Shown here: in pieces, positions 7,269 to 27,360 of the stretch
Numbering within the stretch: the first letter of the stretch is position 1
Layout of the letters: the number at the start of each line of letters is the position of its first letter
Source: Polaribacter sp. SA4-12
Lineage (GTDB): Bacteria; Bacteroidota; Bacteroidia; Flavobacteriales; Flavobacteriaceae
Assembly (NCBI RefSeq): GCF_002163675.1
Contig: NZ_CP019334.1
Location: 2,213,501 to 2,277,500 of the forward strand
DNA: 64,000 bases
Direction: 5' to 3'
Notes under the pieces: generated by a model
Databases searched by the model: none
What the model was told of the DNA's origin: nothing
What the model saw: only the letters and a program-made list of their open reading frames with translations
Position numbers and translations under genes: made by a program

Positions 7269-8477
7269 TTATAAAAAAGCCCCAGTTTCTTGTATTTTAA
7301 AAGCAACAGCAAAAGCTAATACACTTACGATGATACCAATCATAAAAACGGTATAAGTAACTCTTAATATTTTATATTTTCTGTTTAAAACTAACCCTAA
7401 AAAGTATAAATCTTTCGTTAAAGAACCGTAAAGATAATCTCTATCTTGCATCATTTCTGTAATACCCCATTCAAAATCATTTAATTTCATTTGATGAAAA
7501 TTACCGAAAAACAATAAATTAACTTTTTTATTAGCAACATCTTCTTTTGTAAATTTTCCTTGTGTAACATTAGGTCTCGTTGCTAAAATTGATAATATAA
7601 TAGATGCAACTGTGAAAATTATAAATAGAATTGTTGGCACAATTAAATAACTATTTGAAGAATTATCTAGTTTTGGTAATAAATTAGACAATGCTAAAGA
7701 AACAATAATAGCATTTACAGAAAGTAAAATATTCGCTTTAGTATCTGCAATATTACTTAAAGTCATGTGGTTTTTTAAAGCGATTCTAAACATTGTTTCT
7801 ACACCACGCTCAGGTACATTTCCTTTCTCTTTTTTTAACTCTAAAGCATCTTGCTTCTGATTAAATTTTTTAATATCGTCTTTTAAATCTTTTTGATTCT
7901 TTATTAATTTAGATAAGTTTTTCTGTTTCGCTTTTGTCCAATTTTTTAAAGCATAATCTGTATTAAAGCGATGTTGTTGCGTAAAAAATTCAATATTTCC
8001 TGCAATCCATTCTATGTCAGAAACGTTTTTAAAACCTGTTAACTCCCATTCTTTTCTTAATAAAAAAGTGTAATCAAAATAACTTTTAGAAGCTAAATGC
8101 GCACAATCTGCATCTACTATCATTTTCTCTAAATCATTTTTGGGTTGATGATTCATTTTAGTTGCCAGAATAAGACCTGCAGTAACTTCAATTCTTTTAT
8201 CGGTAACTTTATGTTCTTTTAAAAACTTTGAAGCAATTCTAACACTTTCTTCTTCATGATTTTCAGCTCCTTTTACAAAACCTGTATCATGAAACCAAGC
8301 AGCAATTTCTAAATTTTCAGCAGCTACTTTGTCAATTTTTAAATTTTCAATAAGCTCCTTTGTACTTTTAACCACTCTTTGTGTATGTACTAAATTATGA
8401 TACACATATTTTCGATCTAAATCGGTGTTTAATAAACTAAAGACGTACTTTTCTGTATCAACAATTAATGTGCTCAT
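7269..8477 (-). CDS. HD-domain phosphohydrolase fused to a Pycsar-effector (PycTM/DUF5706) membrane domain
   Basis: The protein has 402 residues. The N-terminal 200 form an HD domain with candidate metal ligands H31 (YHNLVH), H63-D64 (WFHD) and D122 or D124 (VDADCAH), the set used by phosphohydrolases acting on nucleotides. After a Lys-rich helical linker, the C-terminal half begins with ADTKANILLSVNAIIVS, the signature of the PycTM/DUF5706 family, and has hydrophobic helices near residues 250-272, 280-303 and 375-395. PycTM proteins of Pycsar defence form membrane effectors triggered by cyclic pyrimidine nucleotides. No cyclase gene lies nearby, so this stand-alone HD-fused form may sense or degrade a nucleotide in a housekeeping role. 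It has no close operon partner and is divergent from msrB. Confidence 0.8.
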   Translation of the reverse strand: MSTLIVDTEKYVFSLLNTDLDRKYVYHNLVHTQRVVKSTKELIENLKIDKVAAENLEIAAWFHDTGFVKGAENHEEESVRIASKFLKEHKVTDKRIEVTAGLILATKMNHQPKNDLEKMIVDADCAHLASKSYFDYTFLLRKEWELTGFKNVSDIEWIAGNIEFFTQQHRFNTDYALKNWTKAKQKNLSKLIKNQKDLKDDIKKFNQKQDALELKKEKGNVPERGVETMFRIALKNHMTLSNIADTKANILLSVNAIIVSLALSNLLPKLDNSSNSYLIVPTILFIIFTVASIILSILATRPNVTQGKFTKEDVANKKVNLLFFGNFHQMKLNDFEWGITEMMQDRDYLYGSLTKDLYFLGLVLNRKYKILRVTYTVFMIGIIVSVLAFAVAFKIQETGAFL

Positions 8478-8669: not shown

Positions 8670-9122
8670 ATGCTTACTTGGAAAGAAATTATCAGCTTTA
8701 CAGCAAAAGGAAATCCAACTTCAGATAAAAGAGTTGAAAAAACCGAAACTGAATGGAAAGAATTATTAACCGAAGAACAGTTTAGAATTACTAGGCAAAA
8801 AGGAACAGAAAGACCAAATTCTGGCGCTTTATGTAGTATTTATGATAAAGGACAATACAACTGTGTTTGTTGTAATACGCCTTTATTTGATTCTACGATA
8901 AAGTTCGATTCTAGTTCTGGTTGGCCAAGTTTTACGCAACCTATTAAAGAAAATGCCATTAAATATCATAAAGATATTTCTTTTGGTATGGTTCGAGTTG
9001 AAGTAATGTGTAATACTTGCGATGGACATCTAGGACACATTTTTCCTGATGGACCAGAACCAAGCGGATTGCGTTATTGTATTAATTCTGAGTCTATGCA
9101 ATTAGAGAAAGGGAATTCTTAA
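8670..9122 (+). CDS. msrB: peptide-methionine (R)-S-oxide reductase MsrB
   Basis: This 150-residue enzyme reduces the R epimer of methionine sulfoxide in proteins. Visible features are GWPSF, the zinc ligands C65/C68 and C114/C117, GHLGHIFPDGP, and the catalytic C137 within RYCINS. C55 (GALCS) is a candidate resolving cysteine. There is no signal peptide, so it is cytosolic. It heads a tight operon: msrA follows after 1 nt. A purine-rich stretch (AAAGGAAAC) precedes the ATG. All key residues are present. Confidence 0.96.
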   Translation: MLTWKEIISFTAKGNPTSDKRVEKTETEWKELLTEEQFRITRQKGTERPNSGALCSIYDKGQYNCVCCNTPLFDSTIKFDSSSGWPSFTQPIKENAIKYHKDISFGMVRVEVMCNTCDGHLGHIFPDGPEPSGLRYCINSESMQLEKGNS

Positions 9123-9123
9123 A

Positions 9124-9660
9124 ATGACTAAAAATTTACAAATTACCACTTTAGGAGGTGGATGTTTTTGGTGTACAGAAGCTGTATTTCAAGAAGTAAA
9201 AGGTATAGAAAAAGTTGTGTCTGGGTATTCTGGCGGAAATGCTCCTGGAAGACCAACATATAGAGAAATTTGTTCGGGATTAACAGGGCATGCAGAAGTA
9301 ATTCAACTCACTTTTGATGCAAATGTAATTTCGTTTGAAGATATTTTAGTCATTTTTATGACGACTCATGACCCGACAACCTTAAACCAACAAGGTGCTG
9401 ATAGAGGAACTCAATACAGATCTGTAATTTATTATCATAATGATGTTCAAAAGAAGGTTTCTGAAGAAGTTTTAAAACAGATTCAACCATATTATAATGA
9501 TAAAATTGTGACAGAAATTAGTCCGTCAACAATTTTCTATGAAGCAACAATAGAGCATCAAAATTATTACAGAGAGAATACACAACAAGGATATTGTAGT
9601 TTTGTAATTGAACCAAAATTGGCGAAATTGAGAAAATTACACGCAGATAAACTGAGGTAA
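9124..9660 (+). CDS. msrA: peptide-methionine (S)-S-oxide reductase MsrA
   Basis: The protein has 178 residues with the canonical GGGCFWCTEAVF motif. Catalytic C14 and the neighbouring C17 are present, as are the substrate and catalytic partners E58 (GHAE), D93 (GADRG) and Y98 (QYRS). It reduces the S epimer of methionine sulfoxide, complementing MsrB directly upstream. The gaps of 1 nt on each side (to msrB and to the glutaredoxin-like gene) show one transcription unit. It is cytosolic, with no leader peptide. Confidence 0.97.
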   Translation: MTKNLQITTLGGGCFWCTEAVFQEVKGIEKVVSGYSGGNAPGRPTYREICSGLTGHAEVIQLTFDANVISFEDILVIFMTTHDPTTLNQQGADRGTQYRSVIYYHNDVQKKVSEEVLKQIQPYYNDKIVTEISPSTIFYEATIEHQNYYRENTQQGYCSFVIEPKLAKLRKLHADKLR

Positions 9661-9942: not shown

Positions 9943-11499
9943 ATGAAACTTAACATAAAGAATACTTTTACTACAGAAAATCCGGCAGATTCAATTCTTG
10001 AGAATACAAGAAGACAAGTTGAAGAAGCTGTGTTTTCATACGTGAATCCTAAGAAAACGGCAGTACCTAAAGTAGTACACGTTTCGCAAGAAATGAGTTC
10101 TGAATTAGGTATCTCTCAAGAAGAAACGAAATCAGAATTCTTTAAAAATATTGTTACAGGAAATGATATTTATCCAAATACAAAACCTTTTGCAATGTGT
10201 TATGGAGGCCATCAATTTGGTAATTGGGCAGGACAATTAGGTGATGGAAGAGCTATTAATTTATTTGAAGTAGAATACAAAAATAAAAACTGGAAAGTAC
10301 AATTAAAAGGAGCTGGAGAAACTCCATATTCTAGAACTGCAGATGGTTTAGCCGTTTTACGATCTTCTGTAAGAGAATATTTATGTGCTGAAGCAATGTT
10401 TCATTTAGGTGTGCCAACAACAAGATCTTTGTCTTTAAGCTTGTCTGGAGACGATGTTTTACGTGATGTTTTATATGATGGAAACCCTGCGTATGAGAAA
10501 GGCGCAATTGTTTCTAGAATCTCACCAAGTTTTTTACGTTTTGGAAATTATGAGATTTTTTCAGCTAGAAAAGATCTAAAAAATTTAAAAGCTTTGGTTG
10601 ATTACACAATCAAACATCATTTTTCTCATTTAGGAAAACCATCAAAAGAAAGTTATATCAACTTTTTTAAGGAAGTTTCAGAGCGTACTTTAGAAATGAT
10701 AATTCATTGGCAACGTGTTGGCTTTGTTCATGGAGTTATGAATACTGATAATATGTCAATCTTAGGTTTAACCATCGATTTTGGACCTTATGGTTGGTTA
10801 GAAGGGTTCGATTTTGGTTGGACGCCAAACACAACCGACAGACAACACAAACGCTACAGATATGGAAATCAGCCAAATATTGGTTTATGGAATTTGTATC
10901 AACTTGCAAATGCTTTGTATCCTATCATTGAGGAAGTGGAACCTTTAAATGCAATTTTAGAGCAATATAAAACTGATTTTGAACAGAAATCTTTACAGAT
11001 GATGAAATCAAAATTAGGTTTATTTACTTCGGATGAAGAAGATGTAAAACTAATTCAAAATTTAGAAGACACTTTACAATTAGTAGAAACTGATATGACC
11101 ATTTTCTTTAGAAATTTAAGTAGTTTTACTGATGAAAATTCTGGTTTACAATTGATAAAAAAATCATTTTACGACTTTGAAAACATTTCTGATGAAGTAA
11201 TCAATAGTTGGAATTTGTGGTTCAAAAAATACGATGAAAGACTTCAAATTGAAAGAGTTTCATCCGAAGAAAGAAAAGAAAAAATGGATGCTGTAAATCC
11301 TAAATATGTATTACGTAATTACATGTCACAATTAGCAATTGATGAAGCTGACAAAGGAAATTACACTTTAATTGATGAATTATTTCAACTCTTAAAAAAA
11401 CCATATTCTGAACAACCAGAAAATGAAAAATGGTTTGCAAAAAGACCTGAATGGGCAAGAAATAAAGTAGGTTGTTCTATGTTATCTTGTAGCTCATAA
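9943..11499 (+). CDS. selO: protein adenylyltransferase SelO (YdiU/UPF0061)
   Basis: The protein has 518 residues. SelO is a pseudokinase-fold enzyme that transfers AMP to Ser, Thr or Tyr of target proteins. Recognisable segments are the KGAGETPYSR glycine/lysine region near residue 122, HGVMNTDNMSI near 263 and DFGPYG near 280, the last supplying metal ligands. The tail ends GCSMLSCSS, where a conserved cysteine sits in the position occupied by selenocysteine in animal SelO. It lies within the methionine-sulfoxide repair operon, 33 nt after the glutaredoxin-like gene and 17 nt before an aldo/keto reductase, consistent with the known connection of SelO to redox stress. Confidence 0.96.
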   Translation: MKLNIKNTFTTENPADSILENTRRQVEEAVFSYVNPKKTAVPKVVHVSQEMSSELGISQEETKSEFFKNIVTGNDIYPNTKPFAMCYGGHQFGNWAGQLGDGRAINLFEVEYKNKNWKVQLKGAGETPYSRTADGLAVLRSSVREYLCAEAMFHLGVPTTRSLSLSLSGDDVLRDVLYDGNPAYEKGAIVSRISPSFLRFGNYEIFSARKDLKNLKALVDYTIKHHFSHLGKPSKESYINFFKEVSERTLEMIIHWQRVGFVHGVMNTDNMSILGLTIDFGPYGWLEGFDFGWTPNTTDRQHKRYRYGNQPNIGLWNLYQLANALYPIIEEVEPLNAILEQYKTDFEQKSLQMMKSKLGLFTSDEEDVKLIQNLEDTLQLVETDMTIFFRNLSSFTDENSGLQLIKKSFYDFENISDEVINSWNLWFKKYDERLQIERVSSEERKEKMDAVNPKYVLRNYMSQLAIDEADKGNYTLIDELFQLLKKPYSEQPENEKWFAKRPEWARNKVGCSMLSCSS

Positions 11500-11516: not shown

Positions 11517-12461
11517 ATGAAATTAGGATTAGGAACTGCTGCTTTAGGAAGACCTCAATACATAAATGTTCGTCAAGAAGATTGTGATAACTTAGACTTA
11601 GCAGCTTTTAGAAAACATAGTTTTTCGGTTTTAGAAGATGCATATAATTCAGGAATTCGTTATTTTGATACTGCTCCAGGTTATGGATTGGCAGAAGAAT
11701 TAGTATTAGAATGGTTGCAAACTAAAAATGATAAAACCATTGAAATTGCTACAAAATGGGGTTATACATATACTGCAAATTTTGACGCGAATGCAACTGT
11801 TCATGAAGTAAAAGAACATAGTTTATCTAAATTAAATGAACAATGGAAGTTCTCTAAACAGCTTCTACCCTATTTAAAAGTATATCAAATTCATTCTGCA
11901 ACTTTAGAAACTGGAGTTTTAGAAAACAAGCAAGTTTTAGAACAATTAGCTTTTCTAAAAAAGGAACACAATCTTAAAATAGGCTTAACAACTACAGGTA
12001 CAAATCAAGTTGAAGTAATTAAAAAAGCATTGGAAGTTTTTGTTGATGGTAAACAATTATTTGACCTATTTCAAGTAACTTATAATTTTTTAGATCAAAG
12101 TTTAAAGGAGATTTCTGATGAATTATTAAATCAAGATAAATCAATTGTAATAAAAGAAGCATTGGCAAATGGTAGAGTTTTTAAAAATGAGAACTATCCT
12201 CATTATGATAAAATGTATACAACTTTAGAAAACTTAGCAAAAAAACACAAGGTTGGTGTAGATGCCATTTCTTTGAAATATTGTGAGCAAACAATCACTA
12301 ACAGCATTGTTTTAAGTGGCGCAAGCAATTCAGAACAATTGAAAGAGAATTTAAAACTGAATTCTTTTATGCTGTCTAAAGAAGAAATTGAAATATTAAA
12401 CTCACTAAAAATTTCTACAGATTCATACTGGACTGAAAGAAAAAAACTTCAATGGAATTAA
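11517..12461 (+). CDS. aldo/keto reductase
   Basis: This is a 314-residue (beta/alpha)8 oxidoreductase. The catalytic tetrad is intact: D51 and Y56 (YFDTAPGYG), K80 (IATKWGY) and H126 (YQIHS). It should use NADPH to reduce a carbonyl substrate that cannot be deduced from sequence. The gene starts 17 nt after selO and its end overlaps the second msrA by 10 nt, indicating translational coupling with that gene. The operon context suggests detoxification of carbonyls formed during oxidative stress. Confidence 0.92.
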   Translation: MKLGLGTAALGRPQYINVRQEDCDNLDLAAFRKHSFSVLEDAYNSGIRYFDTAPGYGLAEELVLEWLQTKNDKTIEIATKWGYTYTANFDANATVHEVKEHSLSKLNEQWKFSKQLLPYLKVYQIHSATLETGVLENKQVLEQLAFLKKEHNLKIGLTTTGTNQVEVIKKALEVFVDGKQLFDLFQVTYNFLDQSLKEISDELLNQDKSIVIKEALANGRVFKNENYPHYDKMYTTLENLAKKHKVGVDAISLKYCEQTITNSIVLSGASNSEQLKENLKLNSFMLSKEEIEILNSLKISTDSYWTERKKLQWN

Positions 12462-12970
12462 CTAAAATTGCTTTTGGTGGTGGTTGTCATTGGTGTACAG
12501 AAGCAGTTTTTCAAACATTAATCGGTGTCGAAAAGGTAGAACAAGGTTGGGTTTCATCAACAGAAGAAAATAGTAATTTTTCTGAGGCAGTTATTGTTCA
12601 TTTTAATATTAAGAAAATTGATTTAGAAACACTAATTGAAATCCATTTATTAACACACAAAAGTACTAGCAATCATTCTATGAGAAGCAAGTATCGTTCT
12701 GCTGTTTATTATTTTTCTCAACATCAGAAAGACGATATTCTAAAAATAGTTGACAAATTACAATTAGGCTTTGATAATAAAATCATAACAAAAACGTTAG
12801 ATTTTAAAGGGTTTAAAGCATCTACTGAAGAGTTTCAGAATTATTATCAAGCAAATCCTAATAAACCATTTTGTAAAAATTACATCAACCCTAAGTTAAA
12901 ATTTTTAATAACTGAATTTTCAAATCAAGTCAATCAGCGTAAGGTAAATCACCTGAATACGACTATTTAA
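12452..12970 (+). CDS. divergent second MsrA paralogue
   Basis: The protein has 172 residues with the MsrA signature GGGCHWCTEAVFQ (C12, C15). The glutamate (E45 in FSEAVIV) and tyrosine (Y81 in KYRS) are kept. The usual GYSGG...PTY stretch is replaced by a shorter Ser/Glu-rich segment, and the conserved GxDxGxQYRS becomes SMRSKYRS, so the aspartate is lost. It shares only the core with the MsrA encoded at 9124-9660. It overlaps the aldo/keto reductase by 10 nt and is followed 15 nt later by a small zinc-ribbon gene. It is either a reductase with altered specificity or a non-canonical member; activity is uncertain. Confidence 0.85.
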   Translation: MELTKIAFGGGCHWCTEAVFQTLIGVEKVEQGWVSSTEENSNFSEAVIVHFNIKKIDLETLIEIHLLTHKSTSNHSMRSKYRSAVYYFSQHQKDDILKIVDKLQLGFDNKIITKTLDFKGFKASTEEFQNYYQANPNKPFCKNYINPKLKFLITEFSNQVNQRKVNHLNTTI

Positions 12971-13374: not shown

Positions 13375-13401
13375 TTGATTAGCAATTGCAAGTTACATTT
13401 G
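13375..13401 (+). promoter_or_regulatory. promoter of tamB-tamL
   Basis: TTG at 13375-13377 is followed after 16 nt by TACATTTG at 13394-13401. The box lies inside the longest open frame (which begins with a TTG at 13386), indicating that the true tamB start is further downstream. Confidence 0.5.
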
Positions 13402-13424
13402 CACAACTAAAATTGCCTAATACA

Positions 13425-16400
13425 GTGTCTAAAAAAGTACAGCATAAGAAATATCGATTTTTAAAAAGATTTTTACGAATCTTTTTAGGATTTATGATTC
13501 TTATTACCTTGTTGATACTATTTGTAAGAAGCCCTTGGGGACAAAGTATTATTGTAGATAAAGCCGTAAATTTTGTTACAGATAAAACAAACACAAAAAT
13601 TTCTGTAGACAAGCTTTTTTTAACTTTTAAAGGTAGCTTGCAATTAGATGGTTTATACGTAGAAGACACCAAAGGAGACACCTTAATTTATTCGAAATCT
13701 TTAGAAGCTAATTTACCTCTCTGGGCAATGATTAAAGGAGATGCTGTTGGCATTGATAATTTAAATTGGGACGGTTTACAGGCAAATATTAAAAGGAAAG
13801 ACACCATTTCTGGTTATAATTTTCAGTTTTTAATTGATGCATTTGCAACTGAAGATTCAACTCCAGTTATTAAAGACTCTACAACAAAACCTTTAAAAAT
13901 TATTATAGGAAATCTTGATTTAAAAAACATTCATATTGTTTTTAATGATGAAGTATTGGGTATTGATAGCCATTTTAAAATTGGTAATCTAACTGCCAAT
14001 ATGGAAAAAGTTGATTTACAGAAAATGATTTTTAATGCCGATAAAATCGCTCTTTCTGATACAAATATTAAATTGATTCAGAAACCTGTAATTTCAGATA
14101 CTTCAACTACGGAAACTTCTCTACCTCTATTATCTGTTAAAAAATTATCTCTAAAAAATGTAAAAACATATTATGAGAATCCACAAGATAAATTAATTGC
14201 TGATATAAATATTGATGAATTTTATACAGAAATTCCTGAAATTGATTTGTCTAAAAACAACATTCAGCTTACTACCATTCAGCTTAAAAATTCTGATATC
14301 CTCTTAAAAACAGCTTCGAGTAATACTTTATCACATAAAAAACCCGCTGCAAATAATAGCACAACATGTAAGTGGCCCAATTTTAATGTACAAATAACTG
14401 ATATAAATTTAGAAAATAACAACATTAAGTATTTTGTAAACAATGAAAAAGTTATTAAAAACATCTTTAATCCGAATGCTATTGCATTAGAAAAAGTAAC
14501 ATTAAAAGCAGCAGACATTTTCTTGAAAGACAAAAAAGCTGGGTTGCAATTGTCTACATTTAATTTTAAAGAACAATCAGGATTTAGGTTAAGGAAGTTC
14601 ACATTAAACACAGAAGTAACAGATACCGAATTAAAAGTTTCTAATCTAAAAATCAACTTAAATAAAAGTATGGTTTCTGGCTTTGCAAACGCAAAATACA
14701 AATCGATTTCTCAATTAATTTCATCACCAGAAAATACAAGAGTTAAATTAGGTATTCCGAATTTCTCCATTTTTATAGAAGAGTTTTTCACATTTGAACC
14801 TAGCTTAAAACAGAATGAATACGTAACAAAATTAAGTAAGAAAGAACTTTTTGGAAAAATAAATATTACCGGACTTTTAGCAGATTTAAATATTTCTAAT
14901 ACAAATTTAAATTGGGGAATTGCTACTAAAATGTCTATAGATGGGAACATCAAAAACAGCACAAACCCAGAAAAACTAGAATTAAATATTGCTAATTTTA
15001 AAGCAAAGACAAAACGAAATGATCTTTTACAGATTGTTGACGAAAAAGCTTTCGGTATTCATTTACCTGAAGATATTTTAATGAAAAGTAACATAAAAGG
15101 TACTTTAAACAACATCAGTACAAATACAAAAATAACAACATCACAAGGTCTTGCTATTCTTAAAGGAAACTTTAAAGACCAAGCTAAAATTAGTTATAAT
15201 GCTGATCTAAAAATTGAAAATTATAATATTGGAGCTCTTTTAATGAATCCTAATTTTGGAGAATTAAGCGCATCCTTAACATCTACAGGAAGTGGTAAAA
15301 ACATTCAAAATTTAGATGCTACTTTAAATACGACTATTTCTAAATTTCAATTAGAAAAATATCTGATTAAAGATTTACATTTAGAAGGCGATGTAAAAAA
15401 CAGTAAAGGAAAAATAACGGCTACTTATAAAGATCAAAATTTGAATTTCGATTTAAATGCCAATGTAAATTTAGATTCTATAAACTCAAAAGCAACTGTA
15501 AATCTAAACCTAATTGGCGCAAATTTAGAAGCACTTGGTGTTATACAACGTAAAGTAAAAACCGGAATGGAACTTTCTCTGGACTTTGCGGGGAACATTA
15601 AAAATTACACGGTAAAAAGCAACATAAAAAATGGGGTGATTATCTACAATAATAGAACGTTTTTATTAGGAGATGTAACTGCCAATGCTTTTATAGACAA
15701 AGACACAACGGCTGTTTCTTTAAAAAATAAAATGATTGATTTGAATCTAGAATCAAACACAGATCCACAAACATTTAGTACCGCATTACAGCGTCATGTT
15801 TCTAGTTATTTTTATAGAAATATTACACTTTCTGATACCATTGCAAACCCAGTAAATTTAATTTTAAAAGCTAAAGTTTCTCAAACGCCACTTTTAAAAG
15901 ATGTTTTTCTAGTCAATCTAAAAGATTTAGACACTATAAATATTAATGTCAATTTTAAAGAAAAAGAAAGAAAATTGACTGCAAACATTGCTGCTCCACA
16001 CATTAATTTTAGTGACAATGAATTAGATAGTTTGGCTTTTTCTATGCAAACAGATAAAGACGATTTCAACTTTAATTTAGGGTTTAAAGAAATCACCGCA
16101 GGACCTTTAAACGTGCCCAAAACAATAATTACAGGTATACAAAAAGACAACGAATTATCACTTAATTTTTTAGGCTTCTATGAGGGTGAAAAATTAATGA
16201 ATGTAAACACAACCATCACTGGTAACAGTGATAAACTAAAGTTTACAATAGATCAGGACAGTTTATTTTTAAATAGCCATAATTGGAAAATACCTAAAAC
16301 CAATGCCATCCTTTTTGAAGAAAATAAACTTACATTTTCCGATTTTAAAATTAGTAAAGGCAAGCAATCTATAGAAATTACAGATAAAATTCCGCGTATT

Positions 16401-18437
16401 TCTAAAGATCATATCGCTATCAATTATAAAGACTTTCAAATCAATGAAGTTTTTAATTATTTAAGTCCAGAAAACGAAATTACTACAGGAATTTTAAATG
16501 GAGATTTTATTTTAGAACAACCCTTTGGTGACACTGGTATTATTGCAAATCTAAACATTAGTAAGCTAAAAGTATTAAAAACAGACTTTGGTAAATTAAG
16601 TGTAGATGCTAAATCTTTAGAAAACGGAAAGTATGATTTTAATGCTGCTTTAAAAGAAGGTAGTATCGATTTAGATTTAAAAGGCGACTATTTGGTAGAT
16701 AATAATGATGCCAATTTAAATTTAGACTTATTGATTCATAGTTTTCAAATGAAAGCTTTAAACACCCTTTCATTAGGTGAAATCAAAGAAGGTTCGGGTA
16801 GTTTTTCTGGTAATTTTAAAGTAACAGGCAAAACATCTGACCCTAAATATAATGGGAATTTACTTTTTACAAACGCCGCTTTTAAAGTTGCTAAATTAAA
16901 TGCAAAATTCAATTTACAGGATGAAACTTTACAAGTAGATAACAGAGGTTTACACCTATCTAATTTTACAATATTAGATGCAGAAAAAAATTCGTTGGTA
17001 CTTTCTGGAGACATCAAAACTAAGAATTTTATAAACCCTTCTTTTAATTTAGACGTTAAAGCCAATAAGTTTAGAGTGCTAAATGCTACAAAAGAAAACA
17101 ACGAATCTTTGTACGGAAAAGTTTCTATTAATGTTGATGCAAAACTAACAGGAGATTTACAGATTCCTAAATTAAATGCAAAATTAGTTGTTGGTTCAGA
17201 CACAGATGTTACTTATGTGTTACCTTCTAGTTATACAAATATTGAAGAAAGAGACGGTATTGTTGCTTTTGTGAATAGAGAAAATCCGGATGCTATTTTA
17301 ACACAAAAACAAGAACAAACGGCTACTATTACAGGTTTTGATATAAAGGCATTACTTAAAATTGATAAAAAAGCAGCTGTAAATATTATCATAGATAAAG
17401 AATCGGGTGATAATTTTAAGGTTTCTGGTGATGGTGATTTAATCTTTCTAATGAACCCAAATGGACGTTTGTCTTTAACGGGTGCTTATGAAGTTTCCGA
17501 CGGATATTATCAACTGAATTTATACAATGTTGTAGATAGAAAATTTGTATTGGTTCCTGGAAGTCGAATTTCTTGGGGCGGAGATCCTTTTGATGCCAAG
17601 TTAGACATCCGAACAAAATATACATTAAAAACCTCTGCATCAGACTTAATGGCTTCTCAAACTTCTGGCGAAGATTCATCAACAAAAAATAAATACAAAC
17701 AAGTATTGCCGTTTAATGTGTATTTAAATATTGCAGGCGAATTGATGCAACCAAAAATATCTTTTAATTTAGACATGCCAGAAGATCAACAAGGTGCAAT
17801 AAGTGGTCAAGTTTACGAGCGTGTGCAACAAGTAAATCAACAAGAGGAAGAATTAAATAAACAGGTTTTTTCTTTGTTAGTTTTAAATCGATTTTATCCG
17901 GATTCTGGCAGCGATGGTAGTTCTGGTGGCTTTGCAACCATTGCGAGAAACAATTTAAATGATGCTGTATCTGGACAGTTGAATTCTTTTTCTAATAAAA
18001 TTCTAGGTGGCTCTGGTATCGAATTAGATTTTGGTTTAAATAGTTATACAGATTATCAAGGAGACACACCAACAGATAGAACGCAATTAGATGTTGCAGC
18101 TCAGAAAAAATTATTTAATGATCGTTTAACAGTAAGAGTTGGTAGCGAAGTAGACTTGCAAGGAAGCAGTACTACCGAAGAAAAATCTCCTTTAATTGGT
18201 AATGTAAGTTTAGAATATAAAATTACTGAAGATGGTAGGTATCGTCTTAAAGGTTTTAGAAAAAGTGAATTTGAAAATGTAATAGACGGACAAATAATTG
18301 TAAACGGAATTGCATTGATTTTTACCAAAGAATTCAATGAGTTTCATCAACTTTGGAATTCTATTCTACGTTCAAGAGAAGACAAAAAGAACGCAAAAAA
18401 AACTAAGAACGATGATTATTCAGAACCTAAAAAGTAA
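13425..18437 (+). CDS. tamB: translocation and assembly module protein TamB
   Basis: This is a very long protein (about 1670 residues) with one N-terminal membrane anchor (FLRIFLGFMILITLLILFV), then more than a thousand residues of repetitive beta-strand sequence typical of AsmA/TamB bridge proteins, and a C-terminal TamB domain (DUF490) from roughly residue 1250. TamB spans the periplasm and works with an Omp85 partner in outer-membrane protein insertion or lipid transport. The partner, tamL, begins 7 nt downstream. The start is uncertain: no ATG precedes the anchor. GTG at 13425 (VSKKVQHKK) is preferred over TTG at 13413, and the TTG at 13386 lies upstream of the promoter box. Codon use matches the neighbours. 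Confidence 0.92.
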   Translation: MSKKVQHKKYRFLKRFLRIFLGFMILITLLILFVRSPWGQSIIVDKAVNFVTDKTNTKISVDKLFLTFKGSLQLDGLYVEDTKGDTLIYSKSLEANLPLWAMIKGDAVGIDNLNWDGLQANIKRKDTISGYNFQFLIDAFATEDSTPVIKDSTTKPLKIIIGNLDLKNIHIVFNDEVLGIDSHFKIGNLTANMEKVDLQKMIFNADKIALSDTNIKLIQKPVISDTSTTETSLPLLSVKKLSLKNVKTYYENPQDKLIADINIDEFYTEIPEIDLSKNNIQLTTIQLKNSDILLKTASSNTLSHKKPAANNSTTCKWPNFNVQITDINLENNNIKYFVNNEKVIKNIFNPNAIALEKVTLKAADIFLKDKKAGLQLSTFNFKEQSGFRLRKFTLNTEVTDTELKVSNLKINLNKSMVSGFANAKYKSISQLISSPENTRVKLGIPNFSIFIEEFFTFEPSLKQNEYVTKLSKKELFGKINITGLLADLNISNTNLNWGIATKMSIDGNIKNSTNPEKLELNIANFKAKTKRNDLLQIVDEKAFGIHLPEDILMKSNIKGTLNNISTNTKITTSQGLAILKGNFKDQAKISYNADLKIENYNIGALLMNPNFGELSASLTSTGSGKNIQNLDATLNTTISKFQLEKYLIKDLHLEGDVKNSKGKITATYKDQNLNFDLNANVNLDSINSKATVNLNLIGANLEALGVIQRKVKTGMELSLDFAGNIKNYTVKSNIKNGVIIYNNRTFLLGDVTANAFIDKDTTAVSLKNKMIDLNLESNTDPQTFSTALQRHVSSYFYRNITLSDTIANPVNLILKAKVSQTPLLKDVFLVNLKDLDTININVNFKEKERKLTANIAAPHINFSDNELDSLAFSMQTDKDDFNFNLGFKEITAGPLNVPKTIITGIQKDNELSLNFLGFYEGEKLMNVNTTITGNSDKLKFTIDQDSLFLNSHNWKIPKTNAILFEENKLTFSDFKISKGKQSIEITDKIPRISKDHIAINYKDFQINEVFNYLSPENEITTGILNGDFILEQPFGDTGIIANLNISKLKVLKTDFGKLSVDAKSLENGKYDFNAALKEGSIDLDLKGDYLVDNNDANLNLDLLIHSFQMKALNTLSLGEIKEGSGSFSGNFKVTGKTSDPKYNGNLLFTNAAFKVAKLNAKFNLQDETLQVDNRGLHLSNFTILDAEKNSLVLSGDIKTKNFINPSFNLDVKANKFRVLNATKENNESLYGKVSINVDAKLTGDLQIPKLNAKLVVGSDTDVTYVLPSSYTNIEERDGIVAFVNRENPDAILTQKQEQTATITGFDIKALLKIDKKAAVNIIIDKESGDNFKVSGDGDLIFLMNPNGRLSLTGAYEVSDGYYQLNLYNVVDRKFVLVPGSRISWGGDPFDAKLDIRTKYTLKTSASDLMASQTSGEDSSTKNKYKQVLPFNVYLNIAGELMQPKISFNLDMPEDQQGAISGQVYERVQQVNQQEEELNKQVFSLLVLNRFYPDSGSDGSSGGFATIARNNLNDAVSGQLNSFSNKILGGSGIELDFGLNSYTDYQGDTPTDRTQLDVAAQKKLFNDRLTVRVGSEVDLQGSSTTEEKSPLIGNVSLEYKITEDGRYRLKGFRKSEFENVIDGQIIVNGIALIFTKEFNEFHQLWNSILRSREDKKNAKKTKNDDYSEPKK

Positions 18438-18444
18438 CTAAATT

Positions 18445-20739
18445 TTGAAAGCATCCTATAAAAAACAATCTTTTATAATAGTACTATTCGTATTTATCTA
18501 CGGTTGTGGTATTAAAAAACACATCCCAGAAAACAAACGTTTATACACGGGGGCTTCCATAGAAATAGACGCAGACTCAACAGTACAAAAAGTAAGTGAA
18601 TTAAAACAAGATTTATCTTCCGTTTTGAGTCAACAACCAAATACAAAATTCCTTGGTATGCACCTTGGCTTGTATTATTACTATAAAAATCAGCAAGAAA
18701 AAACCAACTTTCTAAACAGATGGTTGTATAAAAAAATAGGACAAAAACCAGTTTATCAATCGGATGTAAATGCCATATCGAATAAAGAAATTTTAAGAAA
18801 TAAATTAGAAAATTACGGCTTTTTCTATAGTACAGTTGGGTCTAGTTTTAAAGAGCAAAAAAAAGAAGCTTCTATAGTATATCGTTTAAAAATACCTGCT
18901 CCTTATAAAATGGCGACCTACAAAATAGATTCTATGGTTTCGCCTATTTATGAAGACATTAAAAGCTTAAGCACAACATCTCCAATTAAAAAAGAGATGC
19001 GTTTCAATTTGGGTAATTTAAAATTAGAAAGACTGCGATTAGATACCGAATTAAAGAACAAAGGATATTATAATTTTAATTCGGAGTTTTTATTATTTGA
19101 AGCGGATACCAATAGATATAAGAGTAAAAAATTCGATTTATTTTTAAAATTAAAAGCGAATGTACCCAAAAAAGCAACCGTTCCTTATCAGATAAAAAAC
19201 ATTAATGTTTATCCGAATTATAATTTAAATGATTCTACAGAAGTAAAAAGCATTCGTTATCAAGAAAAAAACTATCATCAAGACACGTTATTTTTTGATC
19301 CAAAATATTTAGATGAATTTATCACCTTAAAAGAAGGCGATCTTTTTAATCCATCAACCTCTAAAAACACCGCCAGAAGACTTTCTTCTATTGGTGTCTA
19401 TAAGTTTGTAAACATTCAATATAAAGAGATAAAAGATGCTATTACAGATAGTATAGCTAGTTTAGAAGCAAACATTTTTTTATCACCTTTAACCAAACGT
19501 GCCATACGTGCAGAATTACAAGCCGTTACCAAATCTAACAATTTTGCAGGTCCGGAATTATCGTTAACGTATAGCAATAGAAACTTATTTAAAGGAGGCG
19601 AAACGTTAAACATCAGTACAAATATTGGTTACGAAACCCAAATTTCTAGCAGTAGTTCTGGCTTGAGTAGTTTAGAATTGGGCTTAAAAGGCGAACTTGT
19701 TTTCCCGAGAGTTATCTCACCTTTTTCTATCAATAAAGATTATTTCGATTATTCAATTCCCAAAACCAAAGTAAGCTTAAGTGCTACGTATTTAAACAGA
19801 AGTCAATTATACAAATTGCTATCTGGCACAGCACTTTTTGGCTATACTTGGAATGCCAATAAATATATTACGTATGAGGTGAACCCTATTTCTGTAAATT
19901 ATACACGCCTATCAAATACGACCGCAGAATTTCAAGAAATTTTAGATAATAATTCCTATTTACAGAGCAGTTTTGATCAGCAGTTTATAAGCGGACTTAC
20001 CTTTTCTTTCACCTATAATGAAATGTTGAATGCTGCAAAAAGTCATCAATTTTATGTACAATCTACTTTAGATGTTGCAGGAAACTCTATTGGTTTATTA
20101 GGTAAAGAAAAAACAGTAGGTGAACCTAAACAGTTTTTAGGTTTGGAATATGCACAATATGCAAAAGCTGATGTTGATATTAGATATCACTATAATTTTG
20201 GTGCTAAAAAAGAGCAAACAATTGCTGCTCGATTTTTTGCCGGTTATGGTTATGCTTACGGGAATTCTGATGTTATTCCGTTTGTAAAACAATATTATTC
20301 TGGCGGTCCTTATAGCGTTAGAGCATTTAGTATTAGATCTCTTGGACCAGGAACTTATAATGACAAAGATACAGACACTGCGAGTTCTTATTTTGATAAA
20401 ACAGGTAATGTTCGTTTAGAAGCAAATTTAGAATACCGTTTTCCTATTTTTTCTTTTCTAAAAGGAGCTGTTTTTGCGGATACTGGAAATATATGGAATT
20501 CCGTTTCAAACTCTGATTTTAATGATAGTGATGGTAATGTTAGAGACAAATTGACGTCCAACTTTATAAATGAATTAGGAATGGGTGCAGGTTTTGGCTT
20601 GCGAGTAGATGTACAAGGTTTTGTTATTCGTTTCGATTTGGCGGCTCCATTTCATGATCCTTCTTTAGAAGAAGGAAAACGTTGGGACTTTAGAGCAGAT
20701 GAACCTGTTTTTAACTTTGCAATTGGTTATTCTTTTTAG
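18445..20739 (+). CDS. tamL: Omp85-family lipoprotein TamL (BamA/TamA type)
   Basis: The protein has 764 residues. A TTG start gives a short hydrophobic leader ending in FIYGC, a lipobox-like site, in line with TamL being a lipidated TamA homologue of Bacteroidota. POTRA-like domains occupy about residues 30-350, and the C-terminal half is a 16-strand-type barrel with the PYSVRAFSIRSLGPG loop, corresponding to the VRGF/Y signature of Omp85 proteins, and a terminal aromatic strand (FNFAIGYSF). It is 7 nt downstream of tamB, so both parts of the TAM are made from one transcript. Both genes use non-ATG starts. Confidence 0.92.
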   Translation: MKASYKKQSFIIVLFVFIYGCGIKKHIPENKRLYTGASIEIDADSTVQKVSELKQDLSSVLSQQPNTKFLGMHLGLYYYYKNQQEKTNFLNRWLYKKIGQKPVYQSDVNAISNKEILRNKLENYGFFYSTVGSSFKEQKKEASIVYRLKIPAPYKMATYKIDSMVSPIYEDIKSLSTTSPIKKEMRFNLGNLKLERLRLDTELKNKGYYNFNSEFLLFEADTNRYKSKKFDLFLKLKANVPKKATVPYQIKNINVYPNYNLNDSTEVKSIRYQEKNYHQDTLFFDPKYLDEFITLKEGDLFNPSTSKNTARRLSSIGVYKFVNIQYKEIKDAITDSIASLEANIFLSPLTKRAIRAELQAVTKSNNFAGPELSLTYSNRNLFKGGETLNISTNIGYETQISSSSSGLSSLELGLKGELVFPRVISPFSINKDYFDYSIPKTKVSLSATYLNRSQLYKLLSGTALFGYTWNANKYITYEVNPISVNYTRLSNTTAEFQEILDNNSYLQSSFDQQFISGLTFSFTYNEMLNAAKSHQFYVQSTLDVAGNSIGLLGKEKTVGEPKQFLGLEYAQYAKADVDIRYHYNFGAKKEQTIAARFFAGYGYAYGNSDVIPFVKQYYSGGPYSVRAFSIRSLGPGTYNDKDTDTASSYFDKTGNVRLEANLEYRFPIFSFLKGAVFADTGNIWNSVSNSDFNDSDGNVRDKLTSNFINELGMGAGFGLRVDVQGFVIRFDLAAPFHDPSLEEGKRWDFRADEPVFNFAIGYSF

Positions 20740-22437: not shown

Positions 22438-25400
22438 ATGAGACCACTCAAATACACTCTATTTTCTTTACTCTTCTTATTGATTTCCGCTTGTGCAACA
22501 ATAGAAATGCAGGTTGCAGAGAATCAACAAACCGTAATTAAAAAAGATAGTACTTTAATTGCTCATACTTTTTATTTAATTGGTGACGCCGGTAATTCTA
22601 CATTAACTAAAAACTCACCCGCTTTAAACTATTTAAGAAAACATATTAAAGGAGCATCAAAAAAATCAACTTTACTTTTTTTAGGTGATAATGTTTATGA
22701 AACTGGAATTCCGAAAAAAAAATCTAAAAAATATCCTTTAGCAAAAAGAAGAATTGAAGCACAGACAGATGTTGCTAAATTATTTAATGGTAACTCAATA
22801 TTTATACCTGGAAATCATGATTGGTATCATGGCTTAGATGGATTAAAAAGAGAAGAAAAATTAGTAGAAAAAGCGTTGGGTAAAAACTCATTTCTACCAC
22901 AAAATGGTTGTCCTTTAGAGAAAGTAGATATCTCTAAAGACATTGTTTTAATTATTGTTGATACACATTGGTATTTAACAAATTGGGACAATCACCCAAC
23001 CATGAATGATAATTGCGAAATAAAAACAAGAACAAAATTCTTTGACGAATTTGAAGGATTGATAAAAAAAGCAAGAGGAAAAACAACAATTGTTGCTCTA
23101 CATCATCCGATGTTTACAAATGGTTCTCATGGAGGTCAATATTCTTTAAAAAGTCATATGAATCCTTTGCCTGTTTTAGGTTCTCTTAAAAATTTAATCC
23201 GAAAAACATCAGGACTTACAAATACCGACATCCAAAATAAAAAATACAACGAACTTAGAAAACGTATTATAACCTTATCTCAAGAAAATGATAAAACAAT
23301 TTTTGTTTCTGGTCATGATCATAATTTACAATATATCGTTCAAGATAATCTCCCTCAAATAGTTAGTGGTTCTGGTTCAAAAACGACTCCGACTAAACGA
23401 ACTGGTAATGCAAAATTCACTTATGGAAAACAAGGTTTTGCTAAATTAGAAGTTTATAAAGACGGTTCTTCAAACGTTCGTTTTTATACTGTAAAAGATG
23501 ATAAAGTTGTTTATCAAACAGAAGTATTAAAAGCAGATGAAAAGAAAGGTTTTACCACTTTTCCTAAAAATAGAATTACTGAGAAAAAAGCATCCATTTA
23601 TACTAAAGAAGAAATCACTAAAGGTAGTGTTTATCGTTTTTTATGGGGAGAACGTTATCGTAAATATTTTGGAACAGAAGTAAATGCACCAACTGTAGAT
23701 TTAGATACACTTTTTGGAGGTTTAAAACCTGTTAGAAAAGGTGGTGGACATCAATCTAAATCGTTAAGACTTCGTGATAAAAAAGGCAGAGAATATGTGA
23801 TGCGTGCTTTGCGTAAAAATGCGGTACAATATTTACAAGCGGTCGCTTTTAAAGATCAATATATTGAAGGACAATTTGATGATACCAAAACAGAAAACTT
23901 ATTAAATGATGTTTTTACAGGCTCACACCCTTATGCACCTTTTACAATTGGTAAATTGTCTGATGCTATTGGCGTTTATCACACAAATCCTGTTTTATAT
24001 TACATTCCAAAACAGAATAGTTTAGGTTATTTTAATGATGAATTTGGAGACGAATTATACATGATTGAAGAACGAGCAGCTTCTGGTCATGGAGATAAAG
24101 CTAGTTTTGGTTTTGCTGACAAAGTAATAAGTACAGATGATTTATTAAATAATTTAAATAAAAACGAAAATCATGTTTTAGACGAAAAAGCATACATAAA
24201 AGCACGATTATTCGACATGTTAATTGGTGATTGGGATAGACATGAAGATCAATGGAGATGGGCCGTTTTTAAGGAAGACAAACAAACCATTTACAGACCA
24301 ATACCTAGAGATAGAGATCAAGCTTTTTCTATTTTTGGCGATGGAGCTTTATTAAATATTGCAACTAAAATAGTACCAACTTTACGTTTAATGCAATCTT
24401 ATAGTGATGAACTAAAAAGTCCTAAATGGTTTAATTTAGAGCCTTATCCTTTAGACATGACATTAATTTCTACTGCAAGTAAAAAGGATTGGGATGCTCA
24501 AGTAAAGTTAATAACTACTAATATTACTGACGCAGTAATTGACGATGCTTTTACAAATTTCCCAGAAGAAGTAAAAGGCAAAACAATTTCTGAAATAAAA
24601 ACAAAATTACAAGGAAGAAGAAGGAATTTACAGAAAATTTCTGATTCTTATTTTTACCATGTAAATAAATTTCAGGTAATAAGAGGTACACACAAAGATG
24701 ATTGGTTTGATATTGAAAGATTACCAAATGGACATACAAAAATCACTGGATATCGCCTTAAAAAAGGAGAAAAAGAATCTATTTTTCATCAACGAACTTA
24801 TAACAAATCTGAAACCAAAGAAATTTGGATTTATGGTTTAGATGATAAAGATACTTTTGTTGTAAAAGGTAATGATAATCAGGTGATAAAAGTTAGAATT
24901 ATTGGCGGACAAAATAATGATTCTTATAATATAATAAATGGCAAGAAAGTAAAAATTTACGATTTTAAATCTAAGAAAAATACATTTGTAACAAATAAAG
25001 GAAGTAAGAAATTAACGGATGATTATGAAACAAATGTTTACGATTATAAGAAGTTAAAAAACAGTGAGCTGTTAATATCACCAACTATTGGTTTTAACCC
25101 TGATGATGGTGTAAGAATTGGACTTTCTAACGTATATACTGCTTATGGATTTGAAAGAAATCCATTTACTTCACAACACATTTTAAACGCTTCTTATTAT
25201 TTTGCAACTAATGGTTTTTACCTTAATTATTCAGGTGAATTTGCTAACTTTTTTAAAAATTGGAATCTAGGTATAAATGCAACTTTTACGAGTCCTAATT
25301 TTGCAATAAACTACTTTGGATTAGGTAACAACTCTTTAAACCCAGCAGCTAATGAAGTAGAAGAAGAGGAATACAATAGAGTTCGAATAAAAGAAATTAG

Positions 25401-26130
25401 TGCTGGTACTTTTGTTCATTGGAAAGGAGATTTAGGAGCAAAAATTAAAATCGGTGTAAATTTTCAAAACTATAAAATAGAAAATACTACAGGAAGATTT
25501 ATTAACTTAGAACTAAGTCCAACTGACCCTGTTTTTGAAGGTCAAAAATTTATAAATACAGAAGCTAGTTATCAATTTGAAAACACAGACAATCCTGTTT
25601 TTACAACAATGGGAATGAAAACTGAATTAAAATTAGGGTATACTTCAAACCTAAAAAACGATCATAATTTCGCTTATTTAATTCCTACTATTTCATTTGA
25701 TCACAAATTATTTTCTAGTAAGAAATTAGTATTGGCAACAAAATTAAAAGGTCATTTTAATTTTGGAGATTCTTATGAGTTTTACCAAGCAGCAACTATT
25801 GGAGGTAACAGTAACGGTTTAAGAGGTTTTAGAAATCAACGTTTTACTGGTAAGAATTCATTTTATCAATCTACAGATCTTCGTTTACTTTTAAGTAAAG
25901 TAAAAACAAGTTTAGTCCCTTTAAATATTGGTATTTATGGTGGCTTTGATTATGGTAAAGTATGGGGAGAACAAAGTTTGACTGTAAATCCTTTTAGTTC
26001 AAAAAACTGGAATCATTCTTATGGTGGTGGCGTTTTCTTTAACGCTGCAAATATGTTAGGAGCGAATATTGCTGCATTTAACAGTAATGAAGGATTAAGA
26101 ATAGCCGTTAGTTTAGGATTTAAATTTTAA
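22438..26130 (+). CDS. surface lipoprotein: metallophosphoesterase, kinase-like middle region and Omp85-like barrel
   Basis: The protein has 1230 residues. The leader MRPLKYTLFSLLFLLISAC is a lipoprotein signal. Residues 45-300 form a calcineurin/purple-acid-phosphatase type phosphoesterase: GDAGN near 48, GDNVYETG near 82, GNHDWYHG near 124, HHP near 221 and GHDHN near 291. Residues 400-700 contain GREYVMRALRKN (about 450), LIGDWDRHEDQW (about 594) and RPIPRDRDQAF (about 620), a spacing like the Lys, DRH and metal-binding Asp motifs of FAM20/CotH/PI4K-type kinase folds. From about residue 875 to the end the sequence is an outer-membrane barrel with GLRGFRNQRF, resembling the Omp85 loop signature. 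The phosphoesterase and barrel are clear; the kinase-like call is inference. It is followed after 7 nt by a DUF423 gene. Confidence 0.85.
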   Translation: MRPLKYTLFSLLFLLISACATIEMQVAENQQTVIKKDSTLIAHTFYLIGDAGNSTLTKNSPALNYLRKHIKGASKKSTLLFLGDNVYETGIPKKKSKKYPLAKRRIEAQTDVAKLFNGNSIFIPGNHDWYHGLDGLKREEKLVEKALGKNSFLPQNGCPLEKVDISKDIVLIIVDTHWYLTNWDNHPTMNDNCEIKTRTKFFDEFEGLIKKARGKTTIVALHHPMFTNGSHGGQYSLKSHMNPLPVLGSLKNLIRKTSGLTNTDIQNKKYNELRKRIITLSQENDKTIFVSGHDHNLQYIVQDNLPQIVSGSGSKTTPTKRTGNAKFTYGKQGFAKLEVYKDGSSNVRFYTVKDDKVVYQTEVLKADEKKGFTTFPKNRITEKKASIYTKEEITKGSVYRFLWGERYRKYFGTEVNAPTVDLDTLFGGLKPVRKGGGHQSKSLRLRDKKGREYVMRALRKNAVQYLQAVAFKDQYIEGQFDDTKTENLLNDVFTGSHPYAPFTIGKLSDAIGVYHTNPVLYYIPKQNSLGYFNDEFGDELYMIEERAASGHGDKASFGFADKVISTDDLLNNLNKNENHVLDEKAYIKARLFDMLIGDWDRHEDQWRWAVFKEDKQTIYRPIPRDRDQAFSIFGDGALLNIATKIVPTLRLMQSYSDELKSPKWFNLEPYPLDMTLISTASKKDWDAQVKLITTNITDAVIDDAFTNFPEEVKGKTISEIKTKLQGRRRNLQKISDSYFYHVNKFQVIRGTHKDDWFDIERLPNGHTKITGYRLKKGEKESIFHQRTYNKSETKEIWIYGLDDKDTFVVKGNDNQVIKVRIIGGQNNDSYNIINGKKVKIYDFKSKKNTFVTNKGSKKLTDDYETNVYDYKKLKNSELLISPTIGFNPDDGVRIGLSNVYTAYGFERNPFTSQHILNASYYFATNGFYLNYSGEFANFFKNWNLGINATFTSPNFAINYFGLGNNSLNPAANEVEEEEYNRVRIKEISAGTFVHWKGDLGAKIKIGVNFQNYKIENTTGRFINLELSPTDPVFEGQKFINTEASYQFENTDNPVFTTMGMKTELKLGYTSNLKNDHNFAYLIPTISFDHKLFSSKKLVLATKLKGHFNFGDSYEFYQAATIGGNSNGLRGFRNQRFTGKNSFYQSTDLRLLLSKVKTSLVPLNIGIYGGFDYGKVWGEQSLTVNPFSSKNWNHSYGGGVFFNAANMLGANIAAFNSNEGLRIAVSLGFKF

Positions 26131-26137
26131 AATAAAG

Positions 26138-26515
26138 ATGAATACAATAGCATTAATTACAGGAGCAACTTTCGGATTAACAGCAGTGATTTTTGGTGCT
26201 TTTGGCGCTCATTTATTAAAGAAAAAACTAACCACAGAACAATTACAAAGTTTTGAAACTGGCGTAAAACACCAAATATATCATGCAATTGTTTTACTTC
26301 TTTTAGGTTTTCAATTGAATGATAATGCTACAATAAACAATTATATTATTTACGCTTTTATAGTAGGAACAATTCTCTTTTCCTTTTCTATCTATGGATT
26401 GGTTATTTCTTCAGCAAGAAATAAAAAGATAAGAATTTTAGGTCCAATTACTCCTTTGGGAGGTTTGTTCTTAATTATTGGTTGGGCTTTATTAATCTAC
26501 AAGTTTGTAGTTTAA
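26138..26515 (+). CDS. DUF423 (YgdD-type) small membrane protein
   Basis: The protein has 125 residues and four hydrophobic helices (about residues 3-24, 47-60, 69-91 and 100-123). The N-terminal GAFGAHLLKKKL and the ETGVKHQIYHA segment are characteristic of DUF423. It is an inner-membrane protein of unknown function. It follows the phosphoesterase gene by 7 nt and its last 4 nt overlap the convergent gene 26512-27360. Confidence 0.9.
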   Translation: MNTIALITGATFGLTAVIFGAFGAHLLKKKLTTEQLQSFETGVKHQIYHAIVLLLLGFQLNDNATINNYIIYAFIVGTILFSFSIYGLVISSARNKKIRILGPITPLGGLFLIIGWALLIYKFVV

Positions 26516-27360
26516 TTTATTTTTAACTCATAAAAATTACCTCCAACACCATGTGCTTTTTCATCGGTAATCAATAATGTGTTATTAGTTTTAAAAGTAA
26601 TTCCTTCTTTTTGAGAATTGTAGTTTAGAGGAATTCTTATTAGTTTTCCTGATAAAAAATCATCCTTTTTAAAATCAGAAAAAATTAAAACGGATGAAGG
26701 TGATAGCAATGCTACTTTACTTCCATCATTAGAAATATCTGCAGAAGTAATCCAACAATCCATTTCATCACAGTTATTAAATTCAGAAATAAATTCTGCT
26801 TTATGATTCCCTTTTGTAGCAGGAATTCTATATAAAGATGTTTTACCAAATTTATTTTTCACCCTACTTTTAGTAAAAATATAAAGTGAGTTATTGTAAT
26901 AGAAGAAAGATTCTGAATCGAAAAAAAGTTGCTTTTTTTTAGGTGGAAAACTTGATTGATTTGGGTAATAAAACCTAATTTTTTCAACGGCAACTTTCTT
27001 AGAGCTTGATAAGTCTTTATGTTTTACCTTTAAAATAACAAGATTTTTTCTTCGGCTTTCGTTGTTACCAAAATCACCGATATAAAGATTTCCTTTTTCA
27101 TCTGAAGTTAAATCTTCCCAATCGTTGTTTTTTGCTTTTATCCTAGTCTCTTTAACAATCTTACCTTTTTTAGAAACTCCGTAAATTTTAGTTTTATTCC
27201 CACCATCATTTAGCATCCAAATTAAGTTAGAATTCGAAACAACTTCAGTTCCAGAAACTTCTCTTAAATCGTTAGGTAAATCTGACAAAATAGTAAGTTC
27301 TCCAAAGTTCTGACAACCAACAAGAAGTAATAAACTGAATAAAAATGTGATCGTTTTCAA
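26512..27360 (-). CDS. lipoprotein with beta-propeller-like repeats
   Basis: The protein has 282 residues. A TTG start gives the leader LKTITFLFSLLLLVGC, a convincing lipobox. The mature part has recurring strand patterns such as NLIWMLNDGGNKTKIYGV, GNLYIGDFGNN and KVALLSPSSVLIFSDF that suggest a propeller; no catalytic motif is seen. It is probably anchored in the cell envelope. It ends by overlapping the DUF423 gene by 4 nt. The function is unknown. Confidence 0.75.
   Translation of the reverse strand: MKTITFLFSLLLLVGCQNFGELTILSDLPNDLREVSGTEVVSNSNLIWMLNDGGNKTKIYGVSKKGKIVKETRIKAKNNDWEDLTSDEKGNLYIGDFGNNESRRKNLVILKVKHKDLSSSKKVAVEKIRFYYPNQSSFPPKKKQLFFDSESFFYYNNSLYIFTKSRVKNKFGKTSLYRIPATKGNHKAEFISEFNNCDEMDCWITSADISNDGSKVALLSPSSVLIFSDFKKDDFLSGKLIRIPLNYNSQKEGITFKTNNTLLITDEKAHGVGGNFYELKIN

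Follow-up and report, generated by a model that had tools for sequence, protein, structure and literature searches.

Among the closest described systems is the 'Metallo' subfamily of Omp85 proteins. Heinz and Lithgow (2014) divided the Omp85 proteins into ten subfamilies, and in the accessible passages of their survey (PMC4104836) 'Metallo' carries PF00149 and is termed a metalloprotease, POTRA-less subfamilies are on record, and the barrels of the 'noNterm' subfamily resemble those of 'Metallo'. The gene analyzed here lies in a 64,000-nucleotide stretch of Polaribacter sp. SA4-12 (NZ_CP019334.1, positions 2,213,501 to 2,277,500; hereafter the window), and its product shares with 'Metallo', as far as those passages go, a PF00149 domain on an Omp85 barrel without POTRA. 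The published description (PMC4104836) speaks of a metalloprotease, mentions no kinase and contains no word starting with 'phosph', whereas the window protein has a domain of the purple acid phosphatase type and a kinase-fold domain before the barrel. PlpD, the model of type Vd (patatin-Omp85) secretion, likewise carries its enzyme domain ahead of the Omp85 barrel; according to the accessible passages it combines patatin with POTRA and its enzyme domain is periplasmic (PMC11116518), whereas the window protein combines a phosphatase, a kinase fold, and an all-beta connector.

The architecture is partly known already, and the kinase-fold domain within it appears to be new. In openly licensed literature searched by title or abstract start, no Omp85 protein was found to be described as having a kinase domain, which is no proof of absence. 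In the available passages of a study on the beta-barrel assembly machinery (BAM) of F. johnsoniae, no such protein is named and the word 'kinase' is absent. A Fam20 review yielded no motif text. OMP76 of Riemerella is a TonB-receptor-like protein and unrelated. The present comparison amends what has been published on one Omp85 subfamily and fills in what was missing there.

The protein is a widespread and seemingly unstudied outer-membrane protein of Bacteroidota with a phosphatase, a hitherto unrecognized kinase-shaped domain, and a barrel in one chain. Sequence, motifs, conservation, predicted folds, and the occurrence of the parts as fusions or separate genes were computed here. The 1230-residue reading frame is uninterrupted, and the opposite strand is closed in the frame displayed (Table 1). 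The protein is matched once in its own genome (one contig, 3,990,161 bases), and its closest named relatives are from Polaribacter, with 85-86% identity across the middle region. The initial annotation had recognized a phosphoesterase, a kinase-like region, and an Omp85 barrel in a single chain, and this observation is confirmed. It is practically certain that the fold and architecture are those of a tartrate-resistant acid phosphatase (TRAP)-type domain, a kinase-fold domain, and a POTRA-less Omp85 barrel. The N-terminal domain has the calcineurin-like fold with the ligands D, D-x-x-Y, N-H, H, and H-x-H all present, which assigns it to the purple acid phosphatase type; the phosphoesterase call of the initial annotation was right. 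It differs from the tartrate-resistant or purple acid phosphatases (type 5) in being the lipoprotein part of a membrane-anchored fusion. The C-terminal barrel was likewise called correctly. PF03865 scores 23.3 bits against a cut-off of 22.7 and NCBIfam Omp85_fam scores 64.2 against 200; PF01103 was reported for most relatives in the profile-search listing, but not for the window protein. There is no match to the POTRA family PF07244 in the window protein; an all-beta connector is found instead.

The confident predicted model of residues 376-875 shows a two-lobed kinase fold when the middle region alone is used for the structure search. It matches the atypical kinases PI4KII, CotH, CtkA, HipA, and Fam20C over about 210-265 residues at 10-15% identity. 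The kinase fold result rests on this separate model. With the whole-protein model, only phosphatases and barrels were among the PDB matches listed, where one domain can fill the list, and a viral structure library returned phosphoesterases, generic kinases, and nucleases. The middle domain shares with the five families the fold, the DRH/D-x-x-x-N/Q catalytic loop, and a PxDxDxxF-type metal motif, but differs from them in having no Pfam membership, in Gln replacing Asn, and in its fusion to a phosphatase and an outer-membrane barrel. CotH is reported, in the passages accessible, to retain equivalents of PKA D166, N171, and D184 (PMC12189002).

By sequence or profile, no credible family for the middle domain was found in Pfam, NCBIfam, or PDB. 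The window protein has no Pfam match to CotH (PF08757), which was hit by 1/46 relatives at E 0.026 as one of 31 families with similarly weak matches. The Pfam models of HipA, Fam20C, and PI3/PI4 kinases do not match the window protein either, and none is among the 25 families listed for the 46 relatives. A PI3/PI4-kinase profile from the phylum could not be compared, as 0/99 genomes matched. A PADLOC match to the candidate defence protein PDC-M03A over the catalytic loop (residues 577-622; 7.8e-05, 0.0013) is weak and was read as a shared kinase motif only. Elsewhere in the same genome there are two CotH-family matches (C1:455568-456560 and C1:1957632-1958627) and one HipA-family match (C1:1534112-1534792).

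Motif conservation was counted over 164 sequences. Judged from the alignment, the glycine loop, the strand-3 Lys, and the helix-C acid of the protein-kinase-like fold appear to be present, as do the putative catalytic Asp and metal-binding Asp. K460 rather than R456 is our guess for the strand-3 Lys, because it lies ~21 residues (counted by eye) before D491 in relatives without local insertion. Scored jointly at nine positions, 155/164 sequences are complete, L140 deviates once (D600G), and eight have lost four or more, two of them (L150 and L157) with gaps at some of the positions. Such block-wise loss resembles the decay of a site. The phosphoesterase is missing from each of the eight degenerate relatives. 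The putative active site is intact in 131/132 sequences with phosphoesterase versus 24/32 without (Fisher p 7e-06, a value that ignores relatedness), and in two of the 32 (L042 and L103) the phosphoesterase only seems to be missing, because the contig ends or the frame is broken. L103, from Polaribacter sp. MSW5, is recorded in two separate frames, through breakage or sequencing error. Six relatives (L131, L154, L155, L156, L162, and L163) keep the middle fold with degenerate kinase motifs and represent natural pseudokinase-like members. The kinase-like call of the initial annotation, made from the spacing of Lys, DRH, and Asp motifs, thus survives both in the predicted structure and in the aligned homologues, in which these positions are conserved.

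Table 1. Features of the kinase-fold Omp85 gene and its conserved neighbours, in window coordinates
Feature	Position	Strand	Remarks
Entire gene (1230 aa) with phosphoesterase, kinase-fold domain and Omp85 barrel	22438..26130	+	full-length model pLDDT 91.7, pTM 0.90
Signal peptide ending in lipobox LISA before C19; no export signal behind Cys	22438..22494	+	
Purple-acid-phosphatase/TRAP-type metallophosphoesterase, residues 45-340	22570..23457	+	
Kinase-fold domain, residues 415-742; no Pfam/NCBIfam family	23680..24663	+	aligned part is model residues 40-367
Glycine-rich loop GGGHQ, residues 435-439 (putative role)	23740..23754	+	G435 157, G436 157, G437 154, Q439 155 of 164
RALRK, residues 456-460; candidate strand-3 Lys K460 (or R456)	23803..23817	+	R456 157, K460 159 of 164
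D491, candidate helix-C acidic partner (putative role)	23908..23910	+	D 159, E 4 of 164; in helix, model 109-118
GDWDRHEDQW, residues 597-606, catalytic-loop motif; D600 likely catalytic Asp; Q605 at usual Asn place	24226..24255	+	D600 158/164
PRDRDQAF, residues 623-630; candidate metal-binding Asp D625, like CotH PxDxDxxF	24304..24327	+	D625 158/164
Connecting all-beta domain, residues 745-870, at POTRA place of other Omp85 proteins	24670..25047	+	secondary structure of predicted models
16-stranded Omp85-type barrel, residues 877-1227	25066..26118	+	predicted model; NCBIfam Omp85_fam 1.5e-17, below cut-off
GLRGFR, loop-6-type motif (RGF/RGY) between strands 11 and 12	25816..25833	+	
SdiA-regulated-type propeller protein, lipobox-like N-terminus; convergent conserved neighbour	26512..27360	-	PF06977; near gene in 46/80 related loci
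HD-type N-terminus + PycTM protein, 14 kb upstream of gene here	7269..8477	-	PF18967; near gene in 62/80 related loci

The three parts are not always joined. In 170 fetched loci, 131 reading frames, the window's own among them, contain phosphoesterase, middle domain, and barrel, and 26 contain middle domain and barrel (two truncated or broken). The remainder are one phosphoesterase with middle domain (at a contig end), nine phosphoesterases only (one with a broken frame), four middle domains only, and six barrels only. G055 and G251 encode each part by a gene of its own, the three genes following one another on the same strand and the first two each having a lipobox. Six gains or losses of the phosphoesterase, five of them forced by starred branches, are required on a tree of 77 middle domains; the tree was made by a quick method and has several long branches. 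Among the best matches listed in the profile search, many are ~870 aa proteins with the middle domain and a PF01103 barrel, and those named come from Bacteroidetes groups, Ignavibacteria and relatives, Rhodothermales, and one Acidobacteriota bin. Of 296 genomes drawn from the phylum, 144 have a match to one or another part of the protein, which is not always the middle, and at least 7270 protein clusters match one query region.

The most likely arrangement is an enzyme pair facing the periplasm from the outer membrane, and it is likely that both enzyme domains face this side. The initial annotation had instead suggested that phosphatase and kinase are on the cell surface as passengers of their own type Vd-like barrel. 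This is quite improbable, although formally the enzyme domains precede an Omp85 barrel as in PlpD, and an N-terminal lipid is predicted. Described lipoprotein export signals are QKDDE, SDDDD, and SDDFE in the passages accessible (PMC5080379); they require a pair of acidic residues shortly after the lipidated Cys. Such a pair was sought at positions +2 to +6 of the 122 proteins with Cys at the lipobox place, and it was found in 0/122: none has more than one acidic residue there (no acidic residue in 107, one in 15). In a Flavobacterium study, again in the passages accessible, lipoproteins without export signal were assigned to the periplasmic side (PMC12045153). The lipobox, searched with a simple pattern, is found in 0/26 of the middle-barrel class, and since its 24 untruncated members are without it, lipid-led surface export is not general. 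The passenger of PlpD is itself periplasmic in the passages available (PMC11116518), and the window protein has no patatin match. The initial annotation was right on the phosphoesterase, the kinase-like fold, and the barrel, and is unsupported on the surface location and the type Vd passenger.

With modest confidence, we favor as a whole an outer-membrane phosphatase and kinase-fold enzyme of Bacteroidota on a POTRA-less Omp85 barrel, with a complete-looking active site. Both enzyme domains would be held by the barrel on the periplasmic side, in many relatives by an N-terminal lipid too, the barrel acting as anchor and positioner. The kinase-fold domain would phosphorylate a protein, lipid, or glycan of the envelope, and the phosphatase would remove that phosphoryl group or handle phosphate. 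Active phosphotransfer by the kinase-fold domain is moderately probable. Several observations weigh on the other side. The usual catalytic-loop Asn is absent, position 605 being Gln in 157/164 and Asn in 4/164; Fam20C likewise departs at this position. Profile comparison is not significant with CotH (hhalign E 0.021, probability 2.2%) or HipA (E 0.3, probability 0.2%). The 24 untruncated middle-barrel proteins have no phosphoesterase, and therefore the phosphatase-kinase pair is not obligatory. The 131/132 figure comes mostly from 80 closely related Flavobacteriaceae loci and is uncorrected for kinship. ATP is not known to occur in the periplasm. The same Gln, together with the presumed absence of ATP there, the phosphate-related neighbour genes, and the eight degenerate relatives, in which the fold persists without the site, would suit a pseudokinase-like sensor or scaffold that binds nucleotide, phosphate, or a phosphorylated ligand, with the TRAP-type phosphatase as the working enzyme in envelope phosphate scavenging. 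This is unlikely, as all nine positions are kept in 155/164, and a pure scaffold is not expected to retain the glycine loop along with Lys and both Asp residues. A main role in outer-membrane assembly or transport, as for TamA/BamA, with the enzyme domains regulating the barrel or its partners, is very unlikely: POTRA is lacking, TamB and TamL are neighbours only locally (1/80 related loci), the barrel is in some cases encoded separately, and two barrel-less kinase-fold genes exist. TamB- and TamL-like genes do lie just upstream (13386-20739, plus strand; PF04357, PF01103).

For the favored outer-membrane enzyme pair, the architecture hints at an envelope component that may be phosphorylated and dephosphorylated in place, and phosphorylation in the envelope may be reversible; that kinase and phosphatase work on one substrate is doubtful. 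An improbable extension is a new extracytoplasmic kinase family, in which the barrel-tethered kinase and the TRAP-type phosphatase phosphorylate and dephosphorylate a component of the envelope in a cycle; the donor might be polyphosphate or some other compound than ATP. Such a donor is suggested because a polyphosphate kinase gene is repeatedly nearby in distant genomes, though the window's genome has none: it has no PPK1 match, and therefore polyphosphate made by PPK1 is not an obligate donor. Its counterpart in animals would be the Fam20C/TRAP pair of secretory pathways. Few kinases of Gram-negative bacteria are known to act outside the cytoplasm. A kinase-fold family unnamed in the curated libraries searched here goes together with a phosphatase and a barrel of the outer membrane, whether fused to them or encoded next to them, and the question of an envelope phosphorylation cycle in Bacteroidota becomes directly testable.

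Neighbouring genes were compared in 139 loci: 80 from Flavobacteriaceae, 20 distant with phosphoesterase, 37 without, and two split. Flanks were at most ~6 kb, several ended by contig ends, and families were named by Pfam on examples. In this order of groups, the HD-PycTM gene is near in 62/80, 16/20, 15/37, and 0/2 and the SdiA-regulated-type propeller in 46/80, 11/20, 11/37, and 0/2. The corresponding numbers are 0/80, 5/20, 6/37, and 0/2 for polyphosphate kinase and 0/80, 3/20, 9/37, and 0/2 for the SixA-like phosphatase. None of the four is in the flanks of the two split-gene genomes. A polyphosphate kinase gene, accompanied by SixA-like, HD-PycTM, and propeller genes, recurs beside the kinase-barrel gene in L217, L211, L223, L229, and other distant loci. 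The PycTM gene is single in 31/40 genomes, present in two to four copies in five, and absent in four (hand count). Judged from this copy number, chance proximity is unlikely. In Flavobacteriaceae, it is upstream and divergent in 58/62 loci, and the propeller gene is downstream and convergent in 43/46. With these orientations, they are conserved neighbours, not an operon. The PycTM protein of the window (PADLOC PycTM 1e-16) has no recognized cyclase among the neighbours looked at. A role outside Pycsar defence is possible, because in relatives the gene is conserved beside the kinase-barrel gene in divergent orientation. An operon with the upstream XdhC and MobA-like genes was rejected, as the arrangement is local (12/80 related loci). 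The window also encodes the protein adenylyltransferase SelO (9943-11499, plus strand; PF02696) amid the methionine sulfoxide reductase genes SelR and PMSR (8670-9122, 9124-9660, and 12452-12970). SelO is another kinase-fold enzyme.
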